A DNA stretch of 64,000 nucleotides from the NCBI GenBank assembly GCA_015146655.1, contig VKHL01000106.1, positions 38,419 to 102,418 on the forward strand, read 5' to 3'. The notes under the pieces are model-generated. The model made no database searches. It had not been told where the DNA came from and saw nothing but the letters and a program-made list of their open reading frames with translations. The position numbers and the translations under genes were made by a program. The DNA is from Ochromonas danica. Lineage: Eukaryota; Sar; Chrysophyceae; Chromulinales; Chromulinaceae. Positions 2,678 to 25,467 of this stretch are shown one piece after another. Each line of letters opens with the position of its first letter. The stretch's first letter is position 1.

Positions 2678-5600
2678 ATGCCATCAAAAAAGAAAAGCAT
2701 GTTGACTTGCCAGCTCTTGCTCTTTCTGCTACTCCTTATCCTAGATGGAAGACTAGCCTTCCATCCTTCTCTTCCTTCTTCTCCACAACACCAGAGAGTA
2801 CTACTCTGTCGTGCAGTTTCTCGAGGACTAGTTGTGGGGGTGAGGAGAAAAGAGACAACAGCAGTAGGAAGAAGCAGAAGCAGCAGATTCTCTCTCTCCA
2901 CTCTCTATGCCCATCATCATCAGCAACAGCAGGATGTAGAAGAAGATGATAACAGACAAGCAAGTGATAATAGTTCAACAAGGTTTTCCAATCAGAGCAA
3001 GCTGTTAGAGCAAGCCAAGAAGCTTCGTGCTGAAGCAGAGTCCATGGAACGTGCAGGAAAAGAAGAATTGAAACAACAACAGCACCAGCAAGAAAAGGAA
3101 GAAGATGATGGGAGAATAATACCTCCTACTTCTTCTTCCTTTCTAGAAGCTTTTGCATCAAATCGTGATCTCACCAAACTAAAACAACAATTTGACAAAA
3201 ATTATAATAAGAAGAATAATATATCAGAGAAGATATATGTTGCAGAAGAAAAGGAACTATTACTTGATTTGAAGGAGATTCTTTCTTCACGATCAGATAG
3301 TAATTCTTCTTCTTTACCATCTCTTGTGGTGACTATCAAGACTGATGATTCCTTACCATCTCTAACAACAACTGCCCCAACCACTACGACTACGACACAC
3401 TTACCTATAGCACCTTCTCCTTCTCCACGGAGAGTTCGTATCAACTATGCGGAAGCTTCAGAGGAGTTATTGAAAGAGTATGGTCTAGCCAAAATGTTCA
3501 TTAAAATGGCGGTTAACAATCTGGTACAGAGTGTAGAAGATCCGAAACTTCGACAGATCTACTACTATTGCCTACTGAAGGAGATATTGAAAGTGTCTGG
3601 TTCTGATGATGTTCCTCTAGGGAAGCTTGGAGAAAAGTTTAGTGAAAATGGTGAAGGTTGGCTGGAAGTAGAAAAACATGTTCAAGAGATTCTCGCTGAA
3701 GAGGCAGCCATAGAGGAAGAGGAAGAGGAAGAAGATGATGAGGAAGATAGACAACTTCAACACAGCGTAACTCATTCTATAAGAAGCTCTGATACTATTG
3801 CCAAGAAAGAAGAAACAGTCAGGAGTACTTTAAATGTTGATCTGGCTCTGGAGAATAATGTCAACCTTCTCAACCAATTGGAAGCAGCTAACAAGGCAGC
3901 TGAAAATGGCACTCCTGTGGTAGTGAATAATGTCTCACTCGCAGCACTCAGAGATATTGTCAAGCTTAACACTGTTTTCTTGGAAAGCTCTCAAGCCATG
4001 ACAGAGAAAGGAGGAAATATTGAAGAAGCATTGCAAGCCTATCTTAAGGTTTATAACACTAGCATGAACGAGAAGCAGAACGAGATCAACAACAGCATGG
4101 AGGTTCTAAAGAAGAAGGATGATAACAACAAGGATGCTAAAGTCAACAATAATGATAACAAGGACAAAGATGCTAAACAACCATTCCTACTGTTTGATCG
4201 TAGTGCGAATACTCCAGATTGGGTGAATGTTTCCTCTGCATCAGAAGAATTTCTTCGTTTAGCATTTCCTTCAGAAAGTCGACAAAAGGGTGAAGAAATT
4301 ACTCGTAAAGGAGCTGGTCTATTACAAGCTGTCTTATTGAAGGATTTGTTTACAACCTATTCTGTACGTCGTTTTGATGGTGCTGTCATATTTAATGGAG
4401 AAATGAATCGAGGATATACACCTGAAACCTTACAAGCGAATATTACAGAACGTTTAAAACAATACAATCTAACTGAAGCATTAGATTTTTCAATCTTAGA
4501 AGATGATGTCTATCCACCATCGGATAGTATGGATCTAGAAACTATCATGACGTATGTTGTAGAAGATCCCACCACAGCCGTCGTTCTCTATCCAGCTAGT
4601 TGGACACCCAGGGCGAATATGGTTTATGATCAACCTAATAAGATGATACGTTCTTTTCTAACCGCATTTGCTTTTGGAACTTCTGTTAGCTTTGCTATCA
4701 GTTGTAGTAATATTATCACCCCACAAGGTCTTCGATTAGATGACCTATGGACATCATTTTTCCCACTCTTATTTGGTATCTCAGGTATTAACTTCTTAAC
4801 TGAGATAGTTGAACTTACAGTCGCTTCTATGAAATCCGTTAAATTGGATATTACTCGTGTACCTTCTCTAAATCTCTTTAACTTTGGTACAAGAAGTGTC
4901 TTAACTACTTTAGCACGTGATCGTAAGGATATCTTTGACTTAGCCTGGTTTTCCTGGTCAACAGGTACAGTCACTTCCTTCATCGCTGTGCTATTGGGTA
5001 TTTACTTTACCAAGACAGCAAGTCCTGAGATGGTGCAAAGCTTTCCAACGATTCCTTCTTCGATCTTCGAGTTAAATACAATTATACGCCAACTCTTTAA
5101 TGGATTAATGCCCAATGTATTGGCAGTCTCCGAAGCGGGCAAAGCAGAAACAAATGTTCATCTTCATTGGTTAGCAATTGTAGGGATGAGTGGATTCATA
5201 TCACAAGTCTTCCAGTTACTTCCTCTTGATTCCAGTGCAGGAAGTAAGATGACTTTAGGAGCTCTAGGTGCTCAACTACATCGTATATCCAGGGGGTTGA
5301 TGAATCTAACCAAGATCATCTTCATGGTAGCGGTCTTGTTGAATATCAAGGCCATTACCTCCATTCCTCAGACATTTGATATAGAAGCTGTTACAATTGA
5401 TTTCTTTCTCTTTTCTCAGCTTTGTGGATTAGAGTTGGTAAGATGATCTATCTTTCTGTTTCATATGATGATGTTGATGCCTTGTTGTTGATGATTGTTA
5501 GGACTTGCCTGTAAGAAATGCTATGACACCCATCGGAGATCTACGCATGGTGGCTTATTTTGCAGCTGTGTCGATTTTGGTTATTTCCTTCGTCCCCGTG

Positions 5601-5684
5601 GACAATATCAATCAGCACAGCTTGCAATCTGCATATGATTCAGCGGCGTCTTTCTTCTCCAGCTTCCAACACTATCTACCTTAG
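2678..5684 (+). CDS. EGY-like plastid site-2 protease homologue, catalytically dead
   Basis: Exons 2678..5437 and 5502..5684 (64-bp phase-0 intron) give 980 residues. The N-terminus is a hydrophobic signal peptide followed by L-A-F-H-P, as in ochrophyte plastid presequences; ATG at 2699 is an alternative start that matches the paralogue at 18035-19772. Residues about 60-500 are acidic, low-complexity and coiled. From about residue 500 the sequence follows the EGY family (M50 intramembrane metalloproteases of chloroplasts): a soluble domain, several membrane segments, the D-R-K-x-x-F-D element, and a closing T-P-I-G-D-x-R segment in exon 2. The HExxH site is replaced by T-E-I-V-E (708-712), and in the N-x-x-P-x-x-x-x-D-G element Asn is Gln847 and the metal-binding Asp is Ala854. 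It therefore cannot bind zinc as EGY1/2 do and resembles plant EGY3. A pseudoprotease role is inferred. Confidence 0.82.
2736..3117 (+). repeat. 382-bp near-identical inverted repeat, copy 1 (presequence module)
   Basis: This stretch matches the reverse complement of 19342..19723 at 381 of 382 positions by direct reading, with no gap. The one difference, in the codon for residue 122 or so, is GAA here and GAT there. It encodes the end of the signal peptide, the plastid presequence and an acidic coiled stretch. Identity stops abruptly on both sides, although the proteins remain distantly alike beyond it. Confidence 0.95.
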
Positions 5685-5895
5685 ACCCTCTTTTTCTTTT
5701 TAACACATGTAATTATGATATAGTCCAGAGGTTGTTGATGCTATTCATGGTGTTTTATTGTCGTACAGTAGATGTGCAGAGCAGTGGCAAAGGGTTTTCA
5801 AGGACAGGAGGACGGAGGATGAAGTTATCATCATTACCATTAAGACGTGACTACAACACAATATGGTGGTCAAATAGAGGAACGGGTCTGTCTGT

Positions 5896-7982
5896 TTAGG
5901 TGGCCTTTGGAGTTGTCCATCCGGCAGCCACGGGGCCTTGATCATAAATGATCTCACGATGGCAAGACCATACAAGCTGGATAGCTTCAGGTGTACCAAT
6001 ACCAGCAGCTCTAATCACAACAGCACATGAGAACAGCACGGATTACAACAAACGAATTTCACCATAACATACCTGGGATCACCAGCAGGTCCGAACCAAT
6101 GGTTCTGAGGAGCACCTGTCGTGCGGGCACGAATACCACTATAGGTCGTACCATTCACCGTGTTGCTCAAGACATAGTTCTGGAACTGAATGTCTCTTGA
6201 AACAACTGCAGCTGTGAGATGTGCTTCAGTGCGTTCCAAAGCCTCCAATACTTGGTCTAACTCTCCATCTTTGTATTCCACAACAATCTACAAGTATAAA
6301 GAAAAATAAGATGCTCACTTTATATTGGCAGGGATAATAGCTAGTTTGCATACCTGGAAAGGTCCAAAGATCTCAGTGGTGCACAAGGCGTAATGCTCCT
6401 TCTTAAGCAACTCCTTCAGGGGAATCTATCATATCAACGAGATGGAATTACTTCTAAAACAATGGTAACATAGCGGTGTGTTTCAAGGAATAACCTTAAT
6501 GGCGGTTGGTTTCCAAGAGCCATAGCAATCAGGGATCTTGTGATTAGTCTGTAAGTCACCACCGAACAGTAACTCAGCTCCAGGAACCTTCAACAAAGCA
6601 TCGACGTGAGCAAGGAATCTAACCATCAGAAACAAAAGGCAGTGGGTTAACAAGCAATTGAAAGCATATCTAGAAGAGACACAAAGTCAACCTGCTGTTG
6701 GGCACAGTGAGGACAGGCCCCAAAGTGAGATCATCCAACTTCCTTCTCTCTGCCAACTTCTGAATACGACCTAACAATCCAGCTTTAACCCAATTAGCAT
6801 GGACAAACAGCGCTGATTGAGCAGAGCACTTTTGTCCTGAATATGCGTAAGCATCTTGATCACAGACCCAAGCCACATAATCGATATCATGGACATCTGG
6901 ACCCAAGACCTAACCAACACAACAATCGCCTTCACCATTTGATTGAGAGAAATGAAAGAGAAAGTAATACGTACCTTCCAATCCCATCCAGCATCTTCTA
7001 ACTTAACCTTTCCATTGAGTTCCTTCGCTAAGAACTCTCCCACTTTAGAGGAGCCAGTGAACTGAGTGACACGAGGCTTGGCTTGAAGAAGCAGCTTGTG
7101 CATGACAGGTCCATCACAATTGATGAAGTCCACATCTCTAGCTGGCAAGCCGCAGTGAATAAGCATGCGTAATGTCTGCTCTAATACAACAGACACCCTG
7201 GAATCTCCTTTGATCAAGACTTTGTTACCCATGAACAAAGCACCCATCAATTGTAAGATTGGAATCTCAATAGGAAAGTTGAAAGGAGCAATAATGGCAA
7301 TATTGCCATATGGCCATCGATAACCAGATGACAGTTGACCTCCATGATCACCGGGTACTTGGAAACCTTGTGCTAAAAAGCGTACATTATCACCACTAAA
7401 ATTCTGGAAGAATCTTTCTGTAACATGTAATTCTGCTTTAGCTTGATCGTAACTTTTGGGAGCAACACGTTGGATGAGTTTAATAAAGAATTCACGAACA
7501 TCTTCTTTACGTAACATAGCAGCTGCTTCCGCACAGACAGTACCATAGTGTAAGTAACGTTCAGGATGCTTGAAAGGATTGTGTAATCCGGACTTAGGCA
7601 CGGCATGCGCATTTTCAACAAAAGGACGAAGATCACTTTCCTTCGAATCAGACACTTTCATGAAAATATCGCCATTTAAAGGGTCAGGTAAATTCAAGAG
7701 ATGATCGGCAGTCTTCCACTCTCCAGACACTATTCCATTTCATGTCCATTTCCAAAACACATAATCGCCCGGTAAATTCCAGACAATCACAAAGCAAATG
7801 ATGTAAAGAGACTTACCAAGATTCTGAACCACATGAACATGTTTACCAGAGAGTTTGAAAGGATCAACAGTAGCAAAAGCTTCTACATTAGAATGTTTCA
7901 TTTGAATACGTGTTTTCAAGAATTGATTCTTTATCAATGATGATGTCTTTGGTAGTCGTTGTACTAAATTAGTCGTCAACAT
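5896..7982 (-). CDS. ALDH12: Delta-1-pyrroline-5-carboxylate dehydrogenase, ALDH12 family
   Basis: Seven exons on the minus strand (7982..7817, 7729..6975, 6909..6692, 6618..6495, 6425..6354, 6287..6073, 6010..5896) join in frame to 554 residues, close to plant ALDH12A1. The enzyme oxidises P5C/glutamate semialdehyde to glutamate with NAD+, the second step of proline catabolism. Visible hallmarks are the P-F-N-F-P cofactor-site segment, F-T-G-S-S, the general-base Glu300 in L-E-D-A-G, the nucleophile Cys335 in S-G-Q-K-C-S-A-Q, and E-I-F-G-P-F. The first 35 residues are basic and lack acid residues, consistent with a mitochondrial presequence, the usual location. It is convergent with the EGY-like gene, 211 bp away. 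It is the most intron-rich gene here after C2CD5. Confidence 0.95.
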
Positions 7983-8481
7983 ATCTGATATGGAATTATA
8001 ATAGCTTCAAGAGTGGATCTAGTAGAAGACAGTGGTGGTAAGGTGGTAACAAAGTAGTGTTAGTAGTTGGCAATAGTCTAATAGCTATCTTAGACTAGTC
8101 TATCTGTTGCTGTTGTTCTTATTGTTTTGTTGTCCTGCGAACAGTTCTGCTTGAGGTTGCCAGCCAGGATTCTTGCCCTCTAAACCTCAACAAAACAGAG
8201 TTAAAAGTCCACTTCTTGGATGAACTTTAAGTGTTCAACATCCGACATCTTCTGCCTTGTTGCCTTTGATTCACTACATGTACTTGTAGAACGGAAGTTG
8301 AGTTGTCATCATTTGTTTGATTTGTTACATTACAAACTAACCCTAAAATAGAAATATTAAAACTTTAACCTCAATAGATATAATAAGTCTAAATAACGAT
8401 CTTGGCGTAGGTGAATCATGGAGGATAATTGGGATAGTTGTGGTGATACTACTGTAAATACCGAGTTACGTCATGGCAGAC
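7983..8481. other. Intergenic, about 500 bp
   Basis: This is the promoter side of ALDH12 and the 3' flank of the first cysteine-rich gene. The right part (from about 8281) belongs to the tandem duplication described below. No gene seen. Confidence 0.6.
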
Positions 8482-9669
8482 TTAAACCATGTTGGGATCT
8501 TTCACGGGAGGAGCAGAAGCATTAGCGGTCAAAACTGTCCCCTCCGCATAAACATATGTTGGCTGAGCTGGTGCAGCCTCGGCGTATTGAACAGAAGAGT
8601 GGGGGGCGACTTCTTGAGCTGGTTGCTGAATGTAGACCACTTGGGCAGGTTGAGGGGTTTGAACGATATTATGAACTACAATTGTTTGAGCAGGAGGAGG
8701 TGGCACTGGAGCATTGGCGCCGCGGCCAGTGAGCTGACCCACGGATAAGCAGCATGCCATTTTGCACTCTCCTTGAACGCAACAGACACAGAAAGGCAAA
8801 CAAGTATACATGCAAGGTACCTCTTCATCACAAGGAAAGGCACAGCGACGATCAAGACAGAAGTTTTGATCCATGCATTTGATACAGGTTGTTGGCGTGG
8901 AATAACAAACCGCGTTAGATTTGGCCAATAAGCAGCACGAGCGCTGCTTCTCTCTCTCTTTATCCCAACACAAGGGCTTCATGTAAATAGCAGTATTCTT
9001 AACGCATAGACACTGCTGACGCTGTACGCAACCAATACAAGCAGGGAAGCTGCAGAAGCAGGAGTCGATGGTGCAGCAAGTGGCACTGTGAATGTCCAGA
9101 AACACATTATCAGTGAGATCGAAAATATACCAAGATAGGATGCAAAGGAAACTCACTTGCAAGGGACGGCGTCGTACACATTAGAGAGACCCTCCTTGGA
9201 CTCTACATTACGCAACATCTCCCCAGGCTGGAGCATGGACTCATCCAATGGGCAACCACATACCCATTCAAAGCAGAAGCATTGGCGATATAGTTTACAT
9301 CTGCATTCCGGATTGGTCAAATCTGAAACACCAGATCCCAATAAAAAGCAGACGTTCTGTTCGTTGTTGGCAGGTGTGCACTTGCAACTATAGTATTCAT
9401 CCTCAATGCACAAGAACTGAGTGGCTCCTTTGCAACCAAAGCAATGTGGCCAATCCAGATAGTCACAGCGGAAGGCACAGTAAATGGGATCCAAACTAAA
9501 TCATACCAATTTGGTGATATGGTCTTAGTGGATGCAGTATTTTCAGAAGAAGAAAATAAAAATATTCTTACCGGATAAAATTTGGTGGAAGACCAGGGTT
9601 TACAACTGGCGTAGCAGGTTGATTCTCTACGATAATGGTAGTGGTAGTAGTGGTAGTAGTAGTGTCCAT
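8482..9669 (-). CDS. Cysteine-rich protein A, tandem paralogue
   Basis: Exons 9669..9572, 9495..9157 and 9085..8482 join to 346 residues. I do not recognise the family. The protein starts with a Thr run and a short Pro-rich segment, has no signal peptide or obvious membrane segment, then a body of about 200 residues packed with cysteines in short C-x-C, C-C and C-x-x-C spacings. The C-terminal third is Gly/Pro/Gln/Tyr-rich, and the chain ends K-D-P-N-M-V. The tail holds one copy of a roughly 50-residue module (A-P-V-P-P ... V-V-H-N ... V-V-Y-I-Q-Q ... V-Q-Y) that is present three times in paralogue B. Disulfide-rich structural protein or metal binder are both possible; neither can be shown from sequence. 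Both introns match those of paralogue B. Confidence 0.85.
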
Positions 9670-9869
9670 GATTTGACGAGGAAATCCAAATGATCGAAAG
9701 CGGTTGGATTGTGGTGCTGGGGTATCTTGGATATTAAAACGCGTTGTTCAAAATTTTAATGAATAAACAGGTTTCCATTTCCCTGTCATTTTCGTTTTGT
9801 TTCGTCGCCTTGTTGACATGAAACAGAAATAGTAATAAATTGTATAGATGGCTGTTAACTAGAATGTCC

Positions 9870-10085
9870 ATGACGAACAAATTAAATGGAGAAGAAAGAG
9901 TTCACCAAGCTGAAGTTCAAGCAATTTGAGATTGCTCAAATTTGTACTTTGTTGATTTAAACCACCGATCGCACAGACTTAGCCCTGGCGAAGAAACTTC
10001 GAGCAGAATTCTGTCGTCTCTTGTTTAGTACTGAATTGAAAGATTGACAACGTTCTATTAGTGGGATAAATAATGATAGATAATA
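9870..10085 (+). pseudogene. Dead copy of first exon of the receiver/TPR/CNB gene
   Basis: This segment aligns with the first coding exon of the gene at 12112. The ATG context is preserved, but a length change soon after the ATG shifts the frame, and in the aligned frame a Tyr codon has become TAA and a Cys codon TGA. No later exons of the parent follow, since the second cysteine-rich gene starts instead. It was evidently carried along when the cysteine-rich gene was duplicated together with its divergent neighbour's first exon, and has decayed since. Confidence 0.9.
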
Positions 10086-10373
10086 AACGCAGCAAGTCTC
10101 ATCGATCACCAGTTAACGTAACTAAGAGGTGTGTGTTTCTTGAGGTTGATAACCAGGATTTACAAGTCAGACTCACTTCCCTCAAGAACATTCTTTGAAG
10201 TGTCATCATTTATTTGATTTGTTACAGTATCAACTAATCCTAAGATAGAAAGTTCAAAACTTAACCTCAATAGATAATATTCTAAATAATGTAGCTCTAG
10301 GCTTAAGACATGGAGGATGATTGGGATAGTTGCGATGGTACTACTGTAAATACCGATTTACGTCATGGTCAGT

Positions 10374-11879
10374 TTAAACCATGTTGGGATCTTTCACAGG
10401 AGGAGCAGGAGCATTACTGTTCAAAACCGCACTCTGCGCATATGCATATGTTGGTTGACCTGGTGTAGCCATAACGTACTGAACAGGTTGAGGTGCAGCT
10501 TGAGGTGGTTGCTGAACGTAGACCATTTGCACAGGAGGAGGGGAAGGTGCGACGTTGTGAACAGCCATTGTTTGGTCAGTAGGAGTTGGTGGCACTGAAG
10601 CATTGTCGCCGCGTTGACCTGGTGTACCCATAACGTACTGAACAGGCTGAGGTGCACCTTGAGGTGGTTGCTGAACGTAGACCATTTGCACAGAAGGAGG
10701 ATGGGAATGTACGACGTTGTGAACAGCCATTGTTTCATCCGTAGGAGCTGGTGGCACTGGAGCATTGGCTCCGCGTTGACCTGGTGCAGTCATAACGTAC
10801 TGAACCGGTTGAGGTGCTCCTTGAGGTGGCTGCTGAACATAGACCACTTGCACTTCTTTGCCATGAAGAGGGGGATGAGTGATGTTGTGAACAGCCATTG
10901 TTTCTTCAGTAAGAGGTGGTGGCACTGGAGCCTTGGCACCGCGGCCAGTGAGCTGACCCACGGACATGCAGCACGACATCTTGCACTCTCCTTGAACACA
11001 ACAGACACAGAAGGGCAAACAAGTACACAAGCAAGGTACCTCTTCATCACAAGGAATGGCACAGCGGCGATCAATACAGAAGGTTTGATCCATGCATTTG
11101 ATACAGGTTGTTGGCTTGGAAAAACAAACCGCCTTTGATTTTCCCAACAAGCAGCACGAGCGCGGGTTTTCTCTTTCTTTCTCCCAACACAAGGGCTTCA
11201 TGTAAATAGCTGCGATATCAACACATAGACACTGTTGACGCCGCACACAGCCACAACAGGCAGGGAAGCTGCAGAAGCAGGAGTCGAAGAAGCAGCAAGC
11301 GGCACTGTGAATATTCAGAAATACATATCAGATGAACTCAAAAGAAAACCAAAACGACAGGACACTCACTTGCAAGGGACGGCGTCGTACACATTGGAGA
11401 GACCCTCCTTGGACTCTACATTACGCAACATGTCTCCAGGCTGGAGCATGGACTCATCCAATGGAAAGCCACAAACCAATTCAACGCAGAAGCATTGGCG
11501 ATATAGTTTACATCTCAATTCTGGCTGGGTCAAATCTGAAACGCCAGATGCCAATAAAAAGCAGACGTTCTGTTCGTTGTTGGGAGGAGGGCATTTGCAA
11601 ATATAGTGTTCATCCTCAACGCACAAGAACTGAGTGGCTCCTTTGCAACCAAAGCAATGTGGCCAATCCAGATAGTCACAACGATAGGCACAGTGAATGG
11701 AATCTAGGCTAAATCATAACAATTTCTGTTACTTTGTTCGTATGGGATGCACTTTTTTGAGAAAGAAAATAAGTTCTCTCTTACCGGATAAAACTTGAAG
11801 GAAGACCAGGGTTTACAACAGGAGTATCAGGTTGATTCTCTACGATAACGGTAGTAGCGGTAGTGGTTGTAGTGTCCAT
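10374..11879 (-). CDS. Cysteine-rich protein B with tripled tail repeat
   Basis: Exons 11879..11785, 11708..11370 and 11304..10374 join to 454 residues. It is the tandem paralogue of the gene at 8482: the same Thr-rich start, cysteine body, intron positions and K-D-P-N-M-V end. The difference is the tail. Here a 47-50-residue module (A-P-V-P-P ... M-A-V-H-N ... V-V-Y-V-Q-Q-P-P-Q ... P-V-Q-Y-V-M ... P-G-Q) occurs three times in tandem (about 10410-10930), against once in paralogue A. Pro/Gln/Tyr-rich repeats of this style suggest an extended or aggregation-prone tail. The gene is head-to-head with the one starting at 12112, with 232 bp between the start codons. Function unknown. Confidence 0.85.
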
Positions 11880-12111
11880 GGTTTAACGAGGAAATCCAAA
11901 AGGTTTAGAAGCGGATTGTAATGATGATTGTGATTGGATTGTTCTGCTGTATTAGGGGAGGGTAGTTTCTTGGAAAGTAAAAACGCGTTGTTGAATAAAC
12001 GAACAAGCAAGTTTCAGCCGTTTTGTTGTTTTGCAAATGGAGTGGTTATAGTATGAATTGATAATAGATATGGATATAGATGTTTGAACTATTTCAACAA
12101 CTAGAATATCC
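11880..12111. promoter_or_regulatory. Candidate bidirectional promoter
   Basis: 232 bp separate the start codons of cysteine-rich gene B (minus) and the receiver/TPR/CNB gene (plus). The same arrangement exists in decayed form at 9670-9869, so this interval is part of the duplicated block. No defined element was recognised. Confidence 0.4.
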
Positions 12112-15100
12112 ATGAAGAATCAATCAGATTTAGAAGAGTTCACGAAGCTGAAGTTTAAGCAATTGGAGATTGCTCAAAGTTGTACTTTGTTAATCTACAC
12201 GCGTGATCGTACAGACTTAGCGCTGGCAAAGAAACTTCGACCAGAATTCCGTCGTCTCTTGTTTAGTACTGAATTGAAAGATTGTCAACGATCTATTAGT
12301 CGTATAACCAATGATAATAAAGAGGAAGCGCCTGTTGATATTGTAAGTCATCACTCACTGTGACTAACTTGTTGTGATTGTGTATTAGGTATTAGTTTAC
12401 ATGGCCTGGCTTTGCTTTGGTTTGTATTGAATGGAAGTGTGTTGGTTTACATGGTCTTGCTTGTGTTGACCTTGCTTGTGTTTGTGTTCAATGGAAGTGA
12501 TAACGTCAATCATGGTTTGTGTTGTTTTGTTTGTTTTTAGGTTTTGGCTGACTTTGATTTAAGTATTCCCAAGTTTATTGATTATATTAATAAACGACCA
12601 AGTCAAGCAGAAACTAATCTTTGCCCTTTAATTCCAGTTGTCATCTTAGCTAAAGAGACTTCTATTAAAGATGTTGAAGATCATCTCTTACCTTTTGGTG
12701 GTGTCAATAAGATATTAGACCCACCATTCAAAAGTCATACAGTCTTTAACGTTCTCTTAGAAGCATTATATAATCGTAATAAAGTTGAAGAAACGTTCAA
12801 TTATATCAAGAAAGTACCAACTAAAGCAGCAAAATATCCTTTTCTTTCAATTTTTGAAGCTAAACCACCTTTAAAGAATAAAGAAACAGAAGAGATTACA
12901 AAGAATTCTATTCTTACAGGATCAACTTCATTACATGCTGCTGATCATGTTGTATTAGATGAATTAGATGCTGCATCAGAGAGTTCTAGTATGTTACCAG
13001 ATTGTGTCAAAGTTGCACGACGGAAACATCCTGAACTAAACAATCAATATGAATCACCTGAATTAGATGAGATGCAGGACAATCTTGGTAATGGATTATC
13101 TGGAGGTGTTAAGAGACCTGGCACTCCTCCACCTGCAAGTATTCTTAAGAAACAGTCTAGCTTTGGACGACAACCTTCTCTGTCAGCATTTCGTCAACGA
13201 TCTTCGAAGAGGTTTAACTTTGGTGATTTACAACATGTTAATCAAGATGAGGAAGAAGAAGAAAAGGCAAAAGTGGATAAGCTAGTCTTACCAGATGAAC
13301 AATGGAATTCTATCAAGTAAGATGAATTGCCTTTCGTGTGTTTGTTTGGTGGATGATAAGGATTGTATCTGATGAATGTTTGTATCCTCTTATTGTTATG
13401 GTTATTGTTATGGTTATTGTTTTTGTTGTTGTTGTGGTGGTTTAGTATGTTAGATTCACAAGAGGCAAGAAGAGGTTCACTAATGCTATTCTCAGACGAT
13501 AGTCTCAGTAATAACAATTCACATGAAGGAATGTCAGTTAGTACTACAATGGATGGAGAAACTCTCAAGAAGAAACTTGCCACTATGGGTGTTCAGAATG
13601 AAGTTCTTATGGATTCTGTTCATCGTCCAGTATGGAAGGAATCAAAGCAAGCAGGTAGACAATCACTACTACCCATGCCACTATCCACTATCGCAATGAC
13701 TCACCCACATCTGACCTGTGACTATTGTAGAGAGACAACTAAGACGTACAGGAGGGAAAGTGGTTCATGACTTTTCTCATTTCTTAGAGAAACAACCACC
13801 AGCATTGAATAAAGTACGAACTGTCAGTGGTCTAGATCGTAAAGTTTGTCAACAAGCATGGAGAGCAATTAAACGACCTCTCACATCCAGTGCTATTGAT
13901 CTTCGTAGTGGTAAGAAGGTTTACTCCTCACTCACACATGATGTCTTCTTCACTTTGTCTGTTCATCACAATGATTTAATAGAGAAAAGTGGTTTGCCAA
14001 GATTAGACACACTTCGAGTTGTTACTGAAGGCTCAACACCAAAAGGCACACCAAAGAGCTCATCAATGAAAGGTTCATCAGAAAGGATTATAACACTTCG
14101 TAAAGATGATTCCTTTTTATTACAAGTTACTAACAACTCAACAGGTAAAAATACACCAACAAAAGCAATGATGAAAAGTCGTGCAGATAGTATTCATAGT
14201 GGAATATCTGGAGAAGGTGATCATATCTCAATAGTACAAGAAGATGATCGAAGTTGGTTAAAGAAGTCTGGAGGTGGTAGTGATTTAAGTTTAAGTTGTT
14301 TTTCACAAGATCCAAGAAATACATCAAAATACTATCGACGTATAGCACAAGTTGCTAAACAAAATATTCCTGATTTACAAGTTAGTGAATTATTAGATAT
14401 TGATTTTACAAATCAACGTATTAATTTAGGAGAAAAGGATATGTTAGAAAGAGGTCTTAGTTTACAAAAATCAGGTGATATGGAATCAGCTGCAATCTAT
14501 TATACACGTGCTGGTGCACATAGTAAAGATCAAGAAATTAGTCGAATGTTATTAGGTAATTTAAATTATAATTTAAAGAGATTATTATCAGCTTTGAAAT
14601 ATTATGATCAAGCTATTCATATTATTGAATCCAAACCAATAGGAGTACGTCCTAGACAACATGCTTTCTTAGCTTATTATAATCGTGCTATTATCTATTT
14701 CCGTCTTGGTGATGATGATGATGGTATTCGTGATATTACAACAGCTTTAGAATATAATAATGAACATTTACAAGCACGAGAGATTCTATCACTTGCTAAA
14801 CGTCGACTTGGTCTATATGGACAAGCAATTGATGAAGCAATTAAACATAAAAATTTGAAAGTTGATTTACATGTTAAAGAGATTGAAAAACAAAGAAAAG
14901 CATTCGAAGCATCACAAAAGCTTCGTATGGTTAAAGGCAATACTACTAACAACAATAACAATGATCATGATAATAATAACAACAACTATGATGATGATGA
15001 TATAGTTCATCCTATTGGAGAAATTCAACATAGCAGTCATTTACTTCAATCTGCTATTAGTCGACGTGGTGAAAGTATGTTAAGTAAAGGTAGTAATAAC

Positions 15101-17834
15101 GGTGGTGGTATTAAGACAATGCAAATTGAAGTACCAGAATCATCATGTCGAAGTTCTTTACGTGATCGTGTAGCAGCACATCGTGGTAGTAACAATGCCT
15201 TTGGTGCTAAAGATAATGATAACAATGATGATGAAGAAAGAGGGAATAGTACAGAATTAGCTGATGGTTATTTGAAATTATTTAAAATGCAACATAATAT
15301 TAAATTAGAATTATTTGATGAAATTTTTAATAAACCAAATGATATTCAAAGTTCATTATTAATTGAACCACTGAAACGAAAATCATCTGATATTAAAATT
15401 ATTGCTAATTATTTAGAATTTTTTCCTTTTCTTTATCCTTTAGGAGAAGGTTTATTAGAAGAATTATCACAATGTGTTGAATATCGTGCAATATGTAATC
15501 CACAATTAGTGTCACAAAATAATCGTCTATTTGGTCAAAATCAAGATCCTTATGCTGTTTGTCTATTAATGAAAGGTCATATTCAAACACGTTTAGATTA
15601 TAGTACACATCAATCAATGACCAATCTCTTCTTAGATGATTATTATGAAAATGAAGTATTTGGACATATTGATTATCTTTTCAATATTATGAGTCGTCCT
15701 TTAGTGAAAGTGATTGAAGAAACACTTCTATTACATCCAAAACATCGTAAAAATACATCTTCTCTCTTTAATACAGCAAGTATTTCTAATCTTGGTTCAT
15801 CATTATTACCATCTTCTCATGGTGATGGAAATGATAGTCTACCAAGTGATTCTAGTGATGATGATACGGATGTATTATTATCTAAAGTTGATGATAACAA
15901 TGAAGCTCATCAAGCTCTACTACAAGAATTACATAGTCTATTAGCCATTGCAGAAGGGAAACAAGGGAATAATGCACAAAATGCAATTTCTCCAACTAGC
16001 AGACTTCAACGCAATGGTACTGGACTTAGTTCTGCTCCACCTGAATTACCCACTACTATCTCACGTGCTATTCGACCTGGCATGTTTGCAACCTATTGTT
16101 TAGCTTCACCATGTGAGTTATTAATGTTCTCTAAGAGAGATTATTATTGTCATTTATATGCACCAGCATTAGAAGAATTTCGATCGCGTTTAGAAGCGAT
16201 TAAAGCATGTGGAATATTTTCACGTTGGAGACCAGAAGAAATGATACGACTTGCTCGTATGGGACGTATCTTACATGTTAAACGTGGTACAATTATTATT
16301 GAACAAGGAGAAAAACCAAAACATTTATTTATTATTATGAAAGGAATGTGTAAAGTGAACAAGAAACCAAATCGTACAGAAATGCTTTTACAAAAATTGG
16401 AGATTGCAAGAGAAAAAGCACATCAACATGATCTTAAATATCTATTCCATCATAAACCTCTTCATTTAGGTATTGAAAGTTCTCCTCCAATTCAACGTAA
16501 AGCAGAAGAAAATGTTGATTGGGATAGTAAAGACAATAGTGAAGATGAGTTGTTAATAGCAGCAGATAATACAATGACAGCAACTCTGTCATCATCATCA
16601 AAGCCTTCTAGTCCTAATAAAGGACGAAATCAGAAACCATCAACACCTATGACACAAAAGATACATAAAGGTCAAATTGCTGGTGGACTAAGCAGATCTC
16701 AAAGTGGTTCTGCGCCAAATACTCCGGTATCTAAGAAACATTTGGCTAAACAAGGTGAGCATCATCTTAACTCTCCGATTCAATCCAAACCAGCAAGTGC
16801 TACTATGACAACTTCGAATACAAACACATCCAAATTGGTAGTGAACGCCGCCTCGACTCTACCACGAGTTGATCACCATCACTCATCAGCTACAAGCACA
16901 ACAACAGCAGCAACAACAACAGCAGCAGGTCCATCCTCAACTGCCAATACTAAACCACCTCTTAACAAGTCCTTAACAAGATCTGCTCCTCCTTCTTCTC
17001 AAAACAATCATTTTACTTTTCCTAATACAACTCCTTCCACGAAGAAGAAATCTCAAAACAAACTATCACATGAACAAAAGTCTTCTCATTCTCTTCATGA
17101 TGTCAAACATTTCCCAACAGTCATTGATTTACCTCCTGCTTCACCAACATCTGCTGAAAAGGAAAGAAGAGAATTACAAATAGAAATTGAGAAATTAGAA
17201 GATCTTATCTCTCAAGCTCGTTTACAAGATGCTTTTGAAAATCACAGACAAAATGGTGGTGGAAGTGCAAGTATTAGTCGAATCCATTCTACTGACAATC
17301 TTCATGATCGTGTTGTTCAAGGGAATAGACCTTTTACTCGTGCATCTGTTAATATGGATCAACCAGGTGATAAAGAAGCTCGTGAATTAGCAGTGACGTT
17401 AGGTAATATTGATGCAGAGATTGCAACGTTGCAATGGCCTATGATCTTTGGTGAAGCTTGTATTCTTGATCCTGAGCATGGCTTTAGTCGAGGGTCAGTC
17501 GTGGCTGACACTAGTTTAGAACTCTTTGTTCTTCATAAGACACAAATACAAACCTTCCAAATTGATGATGCATTCCTTGACAGAGTAAAAGGTAAGGAGA
17601 ATATCTGTCTGTCTGTCATCGTATTGATCTCTTGTATCATCATTTGACTCTGATTCTTCTCTGTGGATGTTCTGTTTAATAGGAAAAGGTGTTGTTTTCC
17701 CAAGCGATCCTGATATTGTTGTCGATCTTTATCATAAGCAACTTTGGGGAGGTTATTGTAAAGATGTCATGAAGGATATTTCCACGAATAAGTGGCCCAA
17801 ATCTCTTAAATCCCATGAACCCTTTAGTGTTTAG
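12112..17834 (+). CDS. Receiver-like / TPR / double cyclic-nucleotide-binding fusion
   Basis: Exons 12112..12342, 12541..13316, 13446..13654, 13731..17591 and 17683..17834 join in frame to 1742 residues. Residues about 20-145 follow the alternating strand/helix pattern of a response-regulator receiver domain: V-L-A-D-F-D places an Asp (81) where the phospho-acceptor sits, but the usual K-P near the end reads L-D-P-P, so it is a degenerate receiver. A low-complexity linker follows. TPR-like helical repeats run about 640-790. A first, weak cyclic-nucleotide-binding-like region spans about 960-1075. A second starts at about 1222 (G-T-I-I-I-E-Q-G-E-K-P) and its F-G-E-A-C-I-L end comes only at about 1640, after an insert of roughly 350 disordered residues. 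A signalling scaffold is inferred; ligand binding is uncertain. Confidence 0.8.
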
Positions 17835-18034
17835 AGGCTGAAGATTGGATTGTAACAACTATGAGAACTCATACTAATGTTGTTTTGTATAATATAACCT
17901 GTAACTTAGAAAATAGAACACAAAGAAGAAATACATTTAGTACTGACTATTTACACTTCCAATCAACCCATATATCCAAACATTCATTCATTCACTCACC
18001 ATTCCACTCAACTGATGGTAACAAATTGGTAATA
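17835..18034. other. Short convergent intergenic region
   Basis: This 200-bp gap lies between two convergent stop codons and is AT-rich. It holds nothing beyond presumed 3' untranslated sequence. Confidence 0.5.
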
Positions 18035-18762
18035 CTATTTCCCATTGTTATTGTCACGATGATTTTCAATCTCAGCCTTTGCCTCCAAGAAAATCCCCCT
18101 GGATTCTTGAATCTTCGTCACAAAGGCTTTTAACCCTTCTTCCATGATTTCTTCTTCTGTGATTGTTTTCATGGCTAGTAAGAAGGCAATGTTTGCTTCT
18201 ATAACAGAAACAAGAAGACTGAGCTCTCGACCAGTCAACAAGGAATTGCTTCCATCGATTGGATATGGAAGAGTGTCGTGCAAGATTCTCTCATTGATAG
18301 CTTTCATTGTTGACAATAATTCAACAGCAGCCCGTCTTCCAGCTTCTCCTTCTAATGGTAGCACGATGCTGGCAACAATTCGATCATATTCTTCTTTGAT
18401 CGAAGTGACCAATCTCTGCATGCGATCATTAACTTTGTCCACAAAGTCAGGGCCCATGTTCCACACGTTATCAACCTTTCTTAACTCTGCCATCTAACAA
18501 ACACAATCAGATAACATGCATATGCAATAAGATGAATCAATGGAATGGAATTCATAGTCTAACCTCTGATAGAATGCAGTGAGTGATGATGATCTTGTCA
18601 AATGGATCATCACTTTCACTACACACAGCTTTAATTGCCTTCTCATAACATTCTGCCCCCATGGGATCTTTGAGAAACTTGACCTTCCGTCGAAGCTCTT
18701 CCACTTCCTTTTCCAATTGCATTTGTTGCTCTTTTGTAACTAACACAACACAATAATTGTCG

Positions 18763-18809
<47 letters not shown>

Positions 18810-19772
18810 TTCATCCTCCTCATCATCATCTTTTATTTCATCTTCCTTTGACTCTCTTTCCATCACTTGACCCTCTTTCGACTTCTTGGGTAATTCTTGA
18901 GCAATCAGCTTTTCAGCCCGCTGAATGACTCTCTCATCTAGTTCATCCTCTCCATTAGCCAACTTAGCCAATTCAATAGGACCTAGCATAGCAATCTTCT
19001 TCATCTCTAGTAACATACTATATCGATAAATCTCTTGTTCTCGTGGATCAGTTGTAAAGTCTACAACTCGATCTAAACCAGGTTTGAAAACAATTTGATA
19101 AAGAAGTTTGTTTTCTCCAATAATCTCTTTTTCTAATCCTATACTTGCTTCTGTATAGTTAACAAGGTTTACTTGATTAATGATTGTTGGAGTGTTTGTT
19201 ATGGTCTGTTGGAAAATCTCATTCTTGTCACTGCCCTGTACATTCTCTACCAGTTCTTGTTTCCAATGCATTAGATTGCGTTTCACTGCAAAAGCATCTA
19301 CAAAGGAACCAGAACCATTAGATGAAACTCTATGAGTAAGAATTCTCCCATCATCTTCTTCCTTTTCTTGCTGGTGCTGCTGTTGTTTCAATTCTTCTTT
19401 TCCTGCACGATCCATGGACTCTGCTTCAGCACGAAGCTTCTTGGCTTGCTCTAACAGCTTGCTCTGATTGGAAAACCTTGTTGAACTATTATCACTTGCT
19501 TGTCTGTTATCATCTTCTTCTACATCCTGCTGTTGCTGATGATGATGGGCATAGAGAGTGGAGAGAGAGAATCTGCTGCTTCTGCTTCTTCCTACTGCTG
19601 TTGTCTCTTTTCTCCTCACCCCCACAACTAGTCCTCGAGAAACTGCACGACAGAGTAGTACTCTCTGGTGTTGTGGAGAAGAAGGAAGAGAAGGATGGAA
19701 GGCTAGTCTTCCATCTAGGATAAACAATAGTAATAGAAGGAAGAGCCAAAGTGTCCGAAAGGCAGTCAACAT
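18035..19772 (-). CDS. Plastid-targeted acidic protein, paralogue of EGY-like N-terminal half
   Basis: Exons 19772..18564 and 18493..18035 (70-bp phase-0 intron) give 555 residues. The start M-L-T plus a hydrophobic run and L-A-F-H-P form a bipartite plastid presequence. From there about 127 residues are the same as in the EGY-like protein at 2678 except for one Glu/Asp change. Beyond it the two remain distantly related (S-F-V-D-A-F-A against S-F-L-E-A-F-A; N-Y-T-E-A-S against N-Y-A-E-A-S; D-P-R-E-Q-E-I-Y against D-P-K-L-R-Q-I-Y). It has no membrane-protease domain and stops after a helical region. A pure Asp run lies near the middle. Function unknown; it may bind or regulate the EGY-like protein, but that is inference. 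Confidence 0.82.
18763..18809 (-). repeat. CAT/GAT trinucleotide microsatellite coding poly-Asp
   Basis: An uninterrupted trinucleotide run of about 15-16 units that reads as consecutive Asp codons on the minus strand inside the plastid-targeted paralogue. More Asp/Glu codons follow with small interruptions. Length polymorphism between strains is likely. Confidence 0.9.
19342..19723 (-). repeat. 382-bp near-identical inverted repeat, copy 2 (presequence module)
   Basis: Reverse-complement partner of 2736..3117, with one mismatch in 382 bp. The two copies lie 16.2 kb apart in opposite orientation, in genes whose other parts are only distantly similar. Confidence 0.95.
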
Positions 19773-19939: not shown

Positions 19940-20840
19940 ATGACAGAAGAATTGGATAATAATGAGGAATTCTTTCAATCTATGCCTCGAATAGGTCTTG
20001 GTGCCTTTAGCTTAGATTCTGAAGAATTGACAATAGAGAGATTTAAAGAGTTTCTTGAAAATGGTGGCCGTTTAATTGAAATTGCCGAACTTTTCAGCAA
20101 TTTCCAACATCTCTTACCCGCTCTTGATCAATGTGGTATCTTACGAGAAGAGCTAATTCTCATTGTACGTATCTGGCCACAAAACTATAGTCCCACAGCT
20201 TTACAAAGTCGTATTGAACGATTTCTGGAGTTATCCAAATTCTTGTACATTGACATCCTCCTCACACATGCACCTATTGATATTGCGAATCGATTTGAAC
20301 AATGGCAAGCATTAGAAGCTTGTAAACGTAAAGGACTTGTACGTGCCTTAGGTCTATCGAACATGTCTCTAAATCAGTTGCTAACGGTTATCAAAGATGC
20401 CACCATCTTGCCATCTTTCTTTTTCACTGAAATTAGTCCTTTTAAACAGCAACGTGAATTAATTGACTATTGTCAAGTTGCTTCCATAGTAGTTATTAAT
20501 GTTGAACCATGCTGTAAAGGTATTCGTAATCGATTACCAAAGGTGATGGAACTTTGTCAACGTCTTCAAGCCTCTCCTGAACAGGTACACCATCACATAT
20601 CATATCCTACGCTCACTCATCTATGCTGTTCCTCACGGTTGATGTTGATGTCTATAGATCTTATTTCGATGGTCACTTACCAAGGGATATGTTACACTAA
20701 TCCCATCGACCAACAAGTCTGTAGGTTTGGATCCAATCTTCCTCAACAAGCCTTTACCAGAAGACATCATGACTATAATGGAAGAGTGGGATGAAGATAA
20801 AGGCAGTGCTTGGGCTCCTATCGTAGATGAGGATAACTAA
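19940..20840 (+). CDS. Aldo/keto reductase-family protein with altered catalytic tetrad
   Basis: Exons 19940..20584 and 20658..20840 (73-bp phase-0 intron) give 275 residues, slightly short for the family (about 300). The TIM-barrel landmarks are present: P-R-I-G-L-G at the start, Y-I-D-I-L-L-T-H-A-P, V-R-A-L-G-L-S-N, and in exon 2 the cofactor segment R-W-S-L-T-K-G-Y-V-T-L-I-P-S-T-N. The catalytic Asp-Tyr-Lys-His tetrad appears as Glu (I-E-I-A), Phe (L-F-S-N), Arg (I-V-R-I-W) and His (T-H-A-P), so three of four residues are changed. NADPH binding may persist but ordinary carbonyl reduction is doubtful. It is head-to-head with the plastid paralogue, 167 bp between start codons. Confidence 0.88.
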
Positions 20841-21055
20841 TAAGAGAAAGTTGGTGTGGTAAGAAAACGAAAATCCGTAACAATGGGCACAATAACCACA
20901 CGTTGTGTTAACAAAACACGAAGCGACTATTCTGACAAGTCCTGCAAGAATTGTCAGCATACCTGTTAACTACAAAACAAAACACACCATATAATACTAA
21001 AAAACAAACGCACCACCGTAGGCGACACACTGGAAACACACGCTCTGTTATTCAC

Positions 21056-23328
21056 TCAACGTTTGGCCTTTAATGAGCTTGTAGCTCCTCCTGCCCCTCT
21101 TTTCAAGGCACTGGGTTTAGCCACAATGCTTTGACATTTAGGAATATGACGTTCAGCTGCTTTTTCATTGAAGCGTCTGCCACAGTGAGGACAGAGAATC
21201 AGGGAAGGGTCGGGCGCTGTTACGACTGGAGGAGGCAAAGGATCTCCCGCAGCTTTCGCCTTGTTATATTCACGCATAGCTTGCATTGCTTGACGGAAGG
21301 CACTGGATTGAGCTTTCCATTTTGGTAGTCCTCCACCATTCTCAGCAGGTTTAATGGGTCTCTGATCATTCATAGGAGGGCCTGCAGCCATAGGCGCCTG
21401 TTTGGCCTTTTTGGCTTCTTCTTTCTTTGCTTTCATATTCAACTTAAGTAACTCAGGATCATCTTTGACACGCATCTTTGTCGAATCAAAGACCTTACGC
21501 TTCTTCAAGAAAACTTTCTCGCAAATTTTCACATGTTTGGAGAAGGCGATAGGATTGAATTTTCGTTCACAATGTGGGCATTGCTGTAACTCACCATCCA
21601 TTGCTTGCCCTTCATCTGCACTATCCTGAGCAAACGATTCATCATTGTATCGATTGTCATCGTCAGATTCTTGCGATGAATACTTTCCATATGATTGGCT
21701 AGGAGGTTGAGGATTACCGAAACCCTTTGCTCCACCATTCCGTGCCTGTTGAGGAGGAATCGCTGCTTCCTCAACCACATTGCGACCCATATTGCTACGA
21801 GAGCTGCGTGTTGGGACAGCTGCTTCCTCAACTACATTGTGATTTCTGTTGTTTTGAGAATTTCTTGACATACTTGATTGGTTTCCAGGCTGCTGTCTGC
21901 TATTGTAATAACTATTGCTATTCACTTCTTCAACAGGTTGGGGTTGAGGTTGAGTTCGACTTCTTCTGGCAGGGACAATAACTTCAACCATTTCTTCATC
22001 CTCTTCTTCTTGTTCTCTTCTCTTAGAATAGGAGGACCGAGCCGGTGCATCAGCTATGCCATTGCTACCATTACCATACCCACTTCTTCGTTGCTCTCTA
22101 GCTGGATTGAATTGATACGAATTCTCCAAGTTATCCGGTGCTGTTCGTCGACCAATGGACGGTTGAAATTCTTCATTGTTATTCAAAGTCAGTCCAGCTC
22201 CAGTGGATCTATTGAAAGAGCGACTGCTTGATCCACTGCTTTCGGACTGTCGAATCTTATTCTTCAATAATGACAAGGCAGGTTTCGCCATAGCAAGCTC
22301 ATTAGCTCTTGGAGATGTCCTCAAACCATTACTGCGATTCTCAATAGCATCTTCCACGAATCGACTATTACCATTAAGAGGAGCATCAGAATAGGAACTA
22401 AAACTATTGGCACGCGGTGAAACATTTCTCTCAAAGCCACCCACAGCCCTTCGACCTTCGACAAAGTCACTTTGTACTCGCTCCATAACTGGAGGAGCAC
22501 CACGGAAAGCAGATGATCGAGCAGTTGTTTCAGGCTTTTTGTCATTTTCTGTTTTAGGTTTATTGTTACCCGATTGACGACGTTTAACTTGTCCAAATCC
22601 TCTAAATGTGGTGTCATCATTCCATCCAGGACCCATATCTCCTTTGCCATCATTACGAAGCATAGAAGAGAATGTCTCATCTGTATCCACAGCAGGAGAT
22701 GATTGGTTATTATTGTTGTTGCTATTGCTGTGTTGATTACTCCTTTCGTCTTCATATTGTCGTAAGAATTGACTTTTGTACTTATCACTGTTTGAATTGG
22801 AATTGATTGAAGAGGCACCTGCTGAAGGGCGAGGAGGGGCTCGACTATTTTGTGCTGCAACAGGTCCGCCAAACTTCTTGAGCTCCTTGCCAAGAGCATC
22901 TGAATTGGGTGAAGGCGGCAGATCACTGACCAACGATTGATTCTTATTCCGCTGAGCTGGCAGAGGCATCTCCATGACATCATTATTAGATGGACGAGCA
23001 ACTTCGACTAATCGATCCAAGGAATCCACAGCACCACCTTTGAAGCTGTTATTCCCATTGGCACCAACAGCACCAGATCGCTTGGGATTAATTGAAGGAG
23101 CAAAGGTATCGCCTTCATGTAAAACATTTTTCCTTTCTTCACGTATTTGTTTTGCTCTTTCTACAGCAGCCTTTATCAGACAAACACAATATTAATTAAT
23201 TAATGAAGAGAATAGTTAATGTGGAGTTAGAAGAAGATTGTTTGTTGGAAGGTGGAATAAAAGCAAAATCTGATTTAATGCGCTACCTTTCTTCGATTTG
23301 CCCATTCTGTCGGATCAGCTGACTTCAT
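21056..23328 (-). CDS. ZC2HC1-family C2HC zinc-finger protein
   Basis: Exons 23328..23287 and 23170..21056 (116-bp phase-0 intron) give 718 residues. The short first exon supplies M-K-S-A-D-P-T-E-W and the sequence continues as charged helix (A-A-V-E-R-A-K-Q-I-R). The middle 500 residues are Ser/Asn/Arg-rich and disordered. Two C2HC fingers close the protein: C-P-H-C-E-R-K-F ... H ... C at about 545-564 and C-P-H-C-G-R-R-F-N-E-K-A-A-E-R-H-I-P-K-C at about 674-693, with a basic linker between. This is the FAM164/ZC2HC1 arrangement, widespread in ciliated eukaryotes. The fingers are certain; the molecular role is not known. Confidence 0.9.
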
Positions 23329-23607
23329 CCCTTTGGAATCAGAAAGATAGTTCTTATTTTCTATTCTTTAACTGACCAAGACACAGTGTCTTCTTTGGAG
23401 GATGGTGATTGATGAGTTGATGCGATGGCCGTTATTGTATCGCGCGCGCACTCACTCAGATCGGCTTTAACTTCACAAACCGTTTCGTGATTTTCATGTC
23501 GTGTGCATGCAAAAGGAGACCAACAACAGAGGGTCAGGGAAAGGTGATTTAGGCTGTTGTTATCATTATTATTGTGAGACCCATTAATTTGGATTATCAT
23601 ATTAATC
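23329..23607. promoter_or_regulatory. Candidate bidirectional promoter
   Basis: 279 bp between divergent start codons of the zinc-finger gene (minus) and the Ser/Pro-rich gene (plus). No specific element recognised. Confidence 0.35.
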
Positions 23608-25467
23608 ATGCCTGTTACAGGCACGATAGGAGGTATATCTGGTCATACCAACAAGAAATATCTCCCACAACAACAACAAACGCGCCAACACAACAACAAT
23701 GCCTATACATTCTCAAGCACAGATCAAGCACCGCCACCTATGTGGCCGAGTGAGGAAGCTAGTGAGATCTCTATTCTTGGCAATCATTTCGCACAAGCTG
23801 TCGCAGTCGTTAGCATTGGACTTGGTGAGGAAGTCTTAAAAGCCAATAAGCGTCTCCCCACAAAGAAAATCTTCTTTGAAGAGCCACAGTACAATCCTGC
23901 TATTGCTAATACACATATTGATCATGAATATGATGCTCATTTTAATGAAGAAACACGCTATTGGGCTAAACGAGGAACAGTTTTCCCTACCGCGAAAAGG
24001 AATTGTCAAGTACCACAGCCCAAGAGATTCATCAAAACAGGTCCTGATGTCAATCATGGAGAGAAGATCTTTGGTAGAACACGGCAAGTGCATCAACTTT
24101 CGGGAAGGAAGAAGTTGCTAACTGAGTCCATGTATCATGATACAGTAAGTACTCCCTTGTTGGTTCGCATGGTTAAACAATGATTTCTCATTCTATTGCT
24201 TTTCTCTTTGTGTACGTCTCTCATCTGTACAGTCAGTTGTTGAAGCGATGAAAGCACGGACTGAAAGTATAGGACCAACGACCTATTCCATCTCTGATCC
24301 ATGGATGCAATTAACAAAACCTGTATGCGGAGAAATTCCTGGTAGTTCTGCCTTCAAAAGCTCTACAGAGAGATTTAAGGAATCTCCTCGACCTGGCGGT
24401 CCTCGTAGTCCACCAAGAAGTCCATCGCCTTCTCGTTTCACTCCTTCTCGTCACACTACTCCTGCTCATGGGATAACCCTTCCTATGCCTTCTCTTCTGA
24501 TATCACCCGCATTATCGGTAGTGACCGAGAAAGATGGAAGTCATCCTTTTATCGATGGAAAAGATAGTTGGGATAGCCTGTCTTTCGATAGAAGAGGCTA
24601 TCCATCTAGTCCACCAAGTCTTGCATCTGGCTCACCTGATCTAGTGATAACACCTCTTCAGCCGCAATTATCCACTGTTCAAGATTCTCCTATTCCTTTA
24701 GTTGGTTCACCTGGAACGAGTTTACGTAATCGAGTGCGAAGTGCAGATATCGTACACTCGAAAAAGCCTGGCCATAGCTTTGGTCGACGCTATGGCCCAG
24801 ATGGAGTGGATATGATGCTCCCTTTTCCTTTTGAATCTCAAGGTCATGAGAATATTGTCTCTCGAGTGGAGGTAAGTGAAGTAGGATGATGATTAAGTTT
24901 GTGGTTTAGTTCTTTTCTAATGCGATCAACAATGTCAATGTTACTGAGCAGAGATATGATCTCACTGCTATGAGAGTGGAGAGTCCCACTGCCAGTCCTA
25001 GGCATAATCAAAGTCCGCCGAAATCTGCTCCTGTTGGTATCTCGCGAAATAACCTCAAAGAAATTACATCTGAACGAATAGGAAGTTCTCCCAATAGGAG
25101 GCGATCTAATCCAGAATTCTCTACGATTGATGTATTGCCACCTTCTTCTTCCATGTCAGCTCTCACTCATGCCACAGAAGAATCCTCTCATCAGCGGAAC
25201 ATTACCGGTCGATGGAATCCTCCACTATGCTATTCGAAAAAGCCTCTTCATGAAAAGATTCTTCAAGAGCAAAGAGAGTTAAAGCAGTTGCAATTATCCT
25301 CTATTGAGGAATTGCGTTCATATGAACATGAGAGCATTAACAAGATGTCAATGCGTCCAAGAGCGCAAACTTCAATGGACAGTCTACCAGGAGGAAGTCA
25401 TCGAAAAGAACTAAGTCAACGCCAACGGCAAAGTCAACGCCCATATACGTCCTCCGGATTGCTCTGA
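23608..25467 (+). CDS. Unknown Ser/Pro-rich protein
   Basis: Exons 23608..24144, 24233..24871 and 24952..25467, with two phase-0 introns of 88 and 80 bp, give 563 residues. I do not recognise it. The first 60 residues are Gln/Asn/Pro-rich. Residues about 60-180 look folded and basic (G-L-G-E-E-V-L-K-A-N-K, Y-W-A-K-R-G-T-V-F-P-T-A-K-R). The rest is Ser/Pro-rich with many S-P pairs, as in proline-directed kinase targets, with a short charged helix near the end. No signal peptide or membrane segment. The first exon is the best candidate for a conserved domain. Confidence 0.8.

Follow-up and report, generated by a model that had tools for sequence, protein, structure and literature searches.

A near-identical 382-bp inverted tract in two diverged paralogues of Ochromonas danica: a probable footprint of ectopic gene conversion

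In the genome of the chrysophyte alga Ochromonas danica two old paralogous genes, placed tail to tail on the same contig, share a tract of 382 bp that is nearly identical, while the rest of their sequences has diverged strongly. We interpret this tract as the footprint of recent, possibly repeated, ectopic (interlocus) gene conversion, a reading to which we assign a probability of about 0.85. Ectopic conversion is an event of a known kind, and we consider this a convincing, though not proven, example of it. Both genes lie in a stretch of 64,000 nucleotides (the window; positions 38,419 to 102,418 of contig VKHL01000106.1, here C106, of assembly GCA_015146655.1), and the coordinates of both genes and of the tract are those of the window. 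The assembly searched amounts to 31.2 Mb in 337 contigs.

A near-identical tract in two convergent genes

The features needed to follow the comparison are these:

2678 to 5446, forward strand: gene 1 (EGY-like), an intronless open reading frame (ORF) of 922 amino acids (aa)
2713 to 2735, forward strand: 5' flank of the tract inside gene 1, coding for the core of the signal peptide and diverged from gene 2 (BLAST)
2736 to 3117, forward strand: arm 1 of the tract, codons 20-147 of gene 1
3118 to 4117, forward strand: 3' flank in gene 1, homologous but strongly diverged (residues 148-480, input of the codon alignment)
19772 to 18035, reverse strand: gene 2 (acidic protein), two exons, 555 aa, with a long Asp run
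18564 to 19772, reverse strand: exon 1 of gene 2, 403 codons, holding arm 2 and the long Asp run (from the ORF and the splice inference)
19342 to 19723, reverse strand: arm 2 of the tract, inverted with respect to arm 1, whose codon phase it shares
18494 to 18563, reverse strand: inferred intron of gene 2, 70 bp, GTTAGA...TTAG, from a frame-keeping GT-AG scan
18035 to 18493, reverse strand: exon 2 of gene 2, 152 codons plus stop, its end resembling residues 395-467 of gene 1

The stretch 2736-3117 aligns to the reverse complement of 19342-19723 over 382 bp, with no gaps and with two mismatches, A/T at 3049 (Glu/Asp) and A/G at 3079 (synonymous). An earlier inspection of the letters alone (the sequence-only reading) had described the same gapless match but counted a single mismatch; its other observation, that the identity ends sharply at both edges, agrees with what we find at exactly 2736/3117 and 19342/19723. 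The BLAST alignment running across the tract and its 5' flank covers 405 bp with 11 mismatches, two of them in the tract and the other nine in the 23 bp of the flank. The longest exact run within the tract is 313 bp, starting at 2736, and both mismatches fall within the last 69 bp, a clustering that carries too little weight to be interpreted. A DNA search of the whole genome retrieved only two matches to the tract, both in the window, and a dispersed repeat or transposon is ruled out by this number. The arms are separated by 16.2 kb, on a contig of 102 kb that is free of N.

Divergence inside and outside the tract

Inside the tract, the codon alignment of the two genes contains one synonymous difference in 85 sites (synonymous divergence, dS, of 0.012) and one replacement difference in 293 sites. 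On the 3' side, diverged homologous sequence resumes within a few codons, in frame and at the expected place, and over 274 aligned codons the identity is 33% for amino acids and 48% for nucleotides (nt), with synonymous sites that are saturated (proportion of synonymous differences, pS, of 0.744). The sequence-only reading had suggested comparing synonymous divergence inside and outside the tract, and the values obtained bear out its impression that the paralogues are far more diverged beyond it. None of 1000 shuffles reached the score of the homology on the 3' side. On the 5' side there is a 17-codon piece with 41% aa identity, and this stretch, coding for the signal core, is short and not significant (its score was reached by 62 of 1000 shuffles). 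The patch itself scored 352. When the codon columns were shuffled 2000 times the highest score was 45, and a chance origin is ruled out by this difference. Purifying selection on the protein is insufficient as an explanation, because the synonymous sites inside the tract are also identical. The comparison shows a recent transfer of sequence, at the DNA level, between two old paralogues.

The relationship between both genes outside the tract was examined separately. Three stretches of gene 2 match residues 152-185, 255-336 and 395-467 of gene 1, in the same order, with scores of 54, 85 and 56 against maxima of 47, 58 and 54 in 1000 shuffles (the difference is narrow for residues 395-467). The proposal that the carriers are paralogous beyond the tract is upheld, since each of the three stretches outscores all 1000 shuffles, though the resemblance is remote. 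We call it remote because the tail of gene 2 reached only an expect value (E) of 0.13 in the genome search. When the tails of the two genes were compared directly the score was 107, while 300 shuffles reached no more than 101; with the acidic runs masked it was 92 against 62. A genome search with exon 2 of gene 2 at E of 1 or less matched only gene 2 itself. Residues 481-922 of gene 1 have no counterpart in gene 2 (the score was reached by 414 of 1000 shuffles). Given three matches in the same order, and none for residues 481-922, it is to the N-terminal half of gene 1 (approximately 470 residues) that gene 2 is paralogous. The acidic gene that the sequence-only reading had located at 18035 is better described as running from 19772 to 18035, with an inferred intron and a match to the N-terminal half of gene 1 only; several other choices of GT-AG borders for this intron also preserve the frame.

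A way to look at the meaning of the tract edges is to place them on the domains of the predicted protein. Codon 20, where the tract starts, lies past most of the Leu-rich hydrophobic core. The putative cleavage site (RLA|F28) is inside the tract, as is a basic Ser/Arg-rich stretch up to about residue 75; some 70 residues of an acidic, Gln-rich region follow, and the tract ends at codon 147. We have assigned signal and transit peptides from the charge profile, the composition and an ASAFAP-type motif rather than with a targeting predictor; such a motif is named in the cited part of PMC4329603, and the site found here, RLAFHP, is only partially like it. By composition, neither edge of the tract falls on a boundary of these peptides, which is more in keeping with a recombination tract than with the capture of a targeting unit. 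The sequence-only reading had considered the identity confined to the targeting region, which is not confirmed, as most of the hydrophobic core is excluded and about 70 residues beyond the basic stretch are included. The capture of a presequence, which it had offered as an alternative, is judged weaker on the same grounds.

Gene conversion and its alternatives

In the process that we envisage, one copy would have suffered a break and the inverted copy, at a distance of 16 kb, would have served as the template for its repair; no crossover would have taken place, and 382 bp would have been overwritten. Repeated earlier conversions probably kept this segment convertible while the rest of the genes escaped, and the two differences present today would either have arisen after the latest event or survived it. 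Repeated conversion is the simplest history because the flanks now have only about 48% nt identity; alternatively, a template switch may have taken place, or one conversion only, within a core that was conserved locally. The very recent gene conversion proposed by the sequence-only reading is well supported by the diverged homologous sequence on the 3' side, the near-identical synonymous sites, the presence of two copies in the genome and two similar pairs elsewhere (see below). Taking as a stand-in the mutation rate of P. tricornutum, 4.77e-10 per site per generation in the cited part of PMC6604790, two differences in 382 bp would correspond to about 5 million generations, an estimate that is good to an order of magnitude at best.

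Several observations do weigh against conversion. The main weakness is that significant homology was found on the 3' side only, which makes a homologous 5' edge no more than putative. The identity of the flanks (about 48%) is also well below the level of about 80% that is usual; according to the cited part of PMC3924818 conversion occurs mainly above this value and can occur below it, and a single event between flanks like those of today would be unusual. An inverted pair 16.2 kb apart is a possible but not a favoured layout. In Caenorhabditis elegans conversion takes place in both orientations and is 3.7-fold commoner within than between chromosomes, its frequency drops with distance over 1-8 kb and the same orientation has been suggested to be favoured, while a human study included in the same article found no effect of proximity (PMC3966223). 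The length of 382 bp exceeds the 50-200 nt at which surviving Caenorhabditis tracts cluster, yet it is inside their range of 12-2,958 (PMC3966223, cited part). Finally, the reading is based on one assembly of one strain.

Comparable cases have been described. The inverted modules of hsp16-48 and the fog-2/ftr-1 pair of C. elegans, as presented in the cited part of PMC3966223, likewise show local near-identity within duplicates on the same chromosome, inverted or direct. The flanks here are far more diverged than in those cases (about 48% nt identity), and the arms are 16.2 kb apart instead of 416 bp and 763 bp. For the silicon transporter genes SuSIT1 and SuSIT2 of the diatom Synedra ulna, an alga with a secondary plastid, conversion is proposed in the part of PMC6114903 cited here. 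In that text, however, the structural genes are identical throughout and the broader reading of the authors is a recent duplication, whereas in O. danica the identity affects only a part of the genes.

One alternative is a capture in one step, by which a template switch during replication, or a partial duplication, would have moved the segment of gene 1 into gene 2 or the reverse. The sharp edges, the low identity of the flanks and the 5' side, which within the genes lacks significant homology, are what such an event would leave. Nevertheless, diverged homology is resumed a few codons 3' of the tract in frame and where expected, the edges match no boundary of the targeting peptides by composition, and in one of the similar pairs found elsewhere (the RGS pair described below) the patch is flanked on either side by homologous sequence that has diverged. 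We consider capture unlikely. That one arm was overwritten by the other, or copied from it, during assembly or polishing seems quite improbable. Neither reading frame is interrupted or shifted at the edges, two bases distinguish the copies and both arms are inside one contig without N. Moreover, the other pairs vary in orientation and length, and one of them spans an apparent intron in which there are indels of 21 bases and of 1 base, a result not expected of simple overwriting. Such an artefact does deserve consideration, as short-read assembly can be confused by repeats of this size and the evidence comes from an assembly and not from reads.

A further explanation is selection on the DNA or the RNA itself, for instance on a shared regulatory or structured element, that would have kept the copies identical since the duplication. 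That both coding regions carry the tract at their 5' end would be consistent with it, as would a third match (99%, 287 bp, on contig C161) to one of the histidine-kinase patches described below, since this match indicates that long DNA identity sometimes extends beyond a local pair. We give this explanation practically no weight. The near-identity involves every codon position and stops at hard edges, with saturated synonymous sites downstream, and no signal of structure was found: the fold had a z of -0.48, with 30 of 100 shuffles folding as well, and no Rfam family matched at its gathering score (two sub-threshold matches were both on the other strand). An RNA element is ruled out by the fold and Rfam results.

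Similar patches elsewhere in the genome

As a background we have used a sample of 302 kb, composed of C20:1-200000 and all 102 kb of C106. The sample is not random; contig C20 was chosen after a weak hit there (E 0.106) and C106 because the window is on it. Stop-to-stop ORFs with a minimum length of 100 aa numbered 462 and gave 32 paralogous ORF pairs (shadow ORFs on the other strand counted), 15 of which had an identical run of at least 100 bp. These 15 correspond to 5 locus pairs, the pair studied here included.

Two of the pairs resemble the one described above. The first codes for RGS domains and is in direct orientation (C20 153480-153761 and 157609-157890), with 282 bp that are 100% identical and have two matches in the genome. 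The aa identity is about 32% on one side of this patch and 25-45% on the other; the homology on its 5' side comes from a separate alignment, as the figure from the codon alignment (28% of 43 codons) probably includes part of an intron and was left unused. In the second, a histidine-kinase/response-regulator pair in inverted orientation (20681-21138 and 23428-23885), 458 bp are 100% identical, flanked by sequences with 60% aa identity after the patch and 43% over 157 aa before it; this pair also has further patches of 98%. Its near-identity extends through an apparent intron, interrupted only by one mismatch and by two indels, of 21 bases and of 1 base. It belongs to a large family (40 matches scored of 54 candidates), which includes the C161 match mentioned above. 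Among the 40 scored matches, contigs C33, C53, C57, C132, C135 and C174 each carry 2-3 copies of equal score, some of them inverted, and these same-contig copies suggest, without proving it, local homogenisation and possibly concerted evolution.

Two other repeats on C20 were not counted as conversion:

C20 182999-183542 and 186523-187066 (L028), direct: 544 bp, 100% identical, 3.5 kb apart; beyond the repeat, resemblance is weakly seen next to one edge
C20 tandem pair at 51-56 kb: 94% identity over 2.5 kb

Two more pairs on C20, one at 73/107 kb and one at 60/185 kb, showed patchy identity.

Because the two further diverged pairs (RGS and histidine kinase) resemble it, the tract studied here is probably one case of a process that is recurrent in this genome. 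The tract indicates that partial near-identity of old paralogues can arise at the DNA level in this alga. As three of the five locus pairs found in the 302 kb look like this, gene trees and the dating of duplicates in this genome could be misled if conversion is ignored.

Gene 1, an EGY-like protein

The protein of gene 1 has a signal-peptide-like stretch at the N terminus, a Phe (F28) following the GRLA|F site, an acidic linker and a C-terminal membrane half; the cleavage site and the membrane half were read from the sequence and not with a predictor. Residues 697-810 match an M50 protein of contig C120 with 32 of 116 aa identical (28%; E 3e-11 in a single comparison and 4.6e-7 in the genome search), and that protein matches Peptidase_M50 (PF02163) at 3.5e-13. 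The Pfam search with gene 1 itself returned no hit, to PF02163 or any other profile. At the position of the zinc motif gene 1 has TEIVE where the C120 homologue has HDGAH, and at the second motif, which was aligned by eye, it has QLLPLDSSAG against NSLPIGRLDGG. As TEIVE replaces HDGAH and the LDGG motif is lost, gene 1 has the appearance of an EGY-type pseudoprotease. Its homology to M50 is supported by these comparisons, while an active M50 protease is not. The C120 protein (M50/EGY-like, L005 349-2430) has itself HDGAH instead of HExxH, which we take to be the zinc motif of M50, and an intact LDGG.

Plant EGY3 is a pseudoprotease of the S2P family in the cited part of PMC9355673, and gene 1 is similar to it in having an M50-like membrane region without the zinc-motif residues of its homologue, and a putative plastid location. 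A difference is the low identity of gene 1, only 28% along 116 aa, to the M50 protein of contig C120 in the same genome. A scan of viral contigs for relatives of gene 1 gave 600 pattern matches, none of which was confirmed.

Possible inversion of the interval between the arms

The 16-kb interval is present in one orientation in the one assembly, with the genes convergent. Inverted arms of 382 bp at a distance of 16.2 kb could make an inversion of this interval possible. In the strongest version of this idea the arms would act as a recombination-driven switch, in which a crossover inverts the 16 kb and exchanges the promoters and the starts of the signal peptides, something that we regard as highly improbable. 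Were it true, the promoter and the signal start would be swapped between the pseudoprotease-like gene and its acidic paralogue with the reading frames unbroken, because the arms are inverted and in the same codon phase and the genes point at each other; recurrent exchange would also keep the arms identical. The arms are in any case a specific candidate for inversion that is cheap to test. Between them (8298-12320 of the window, reverse strand) there are two tandem copies of a gene for a Cys-rich protein, with approximately 78-92% DNA identity depending on the piece; the second copy has internal repeats of about 160 bp in its Pro/Gln-rich end.

Other features of the genome

The genome contains 47 matches to light-harvesting proteins, some of them exon fragments, and these, together with the F28-type cleavage site, would suggest a secondary red plastid. 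On contig C224 (8673-16382) four light-harvesting matches of equal score are spaced by exactly 2407 bases, which points either to tandem amplification in very recent times or to a repeat in the assembly. A locus on contig C2 resembles silicon transporters with 46.1 bits, above the family cut-off of 26.8 but weak. The GC content of C106 is about 41-42%, and that of the first 200 kb of C20 is 46.6%.

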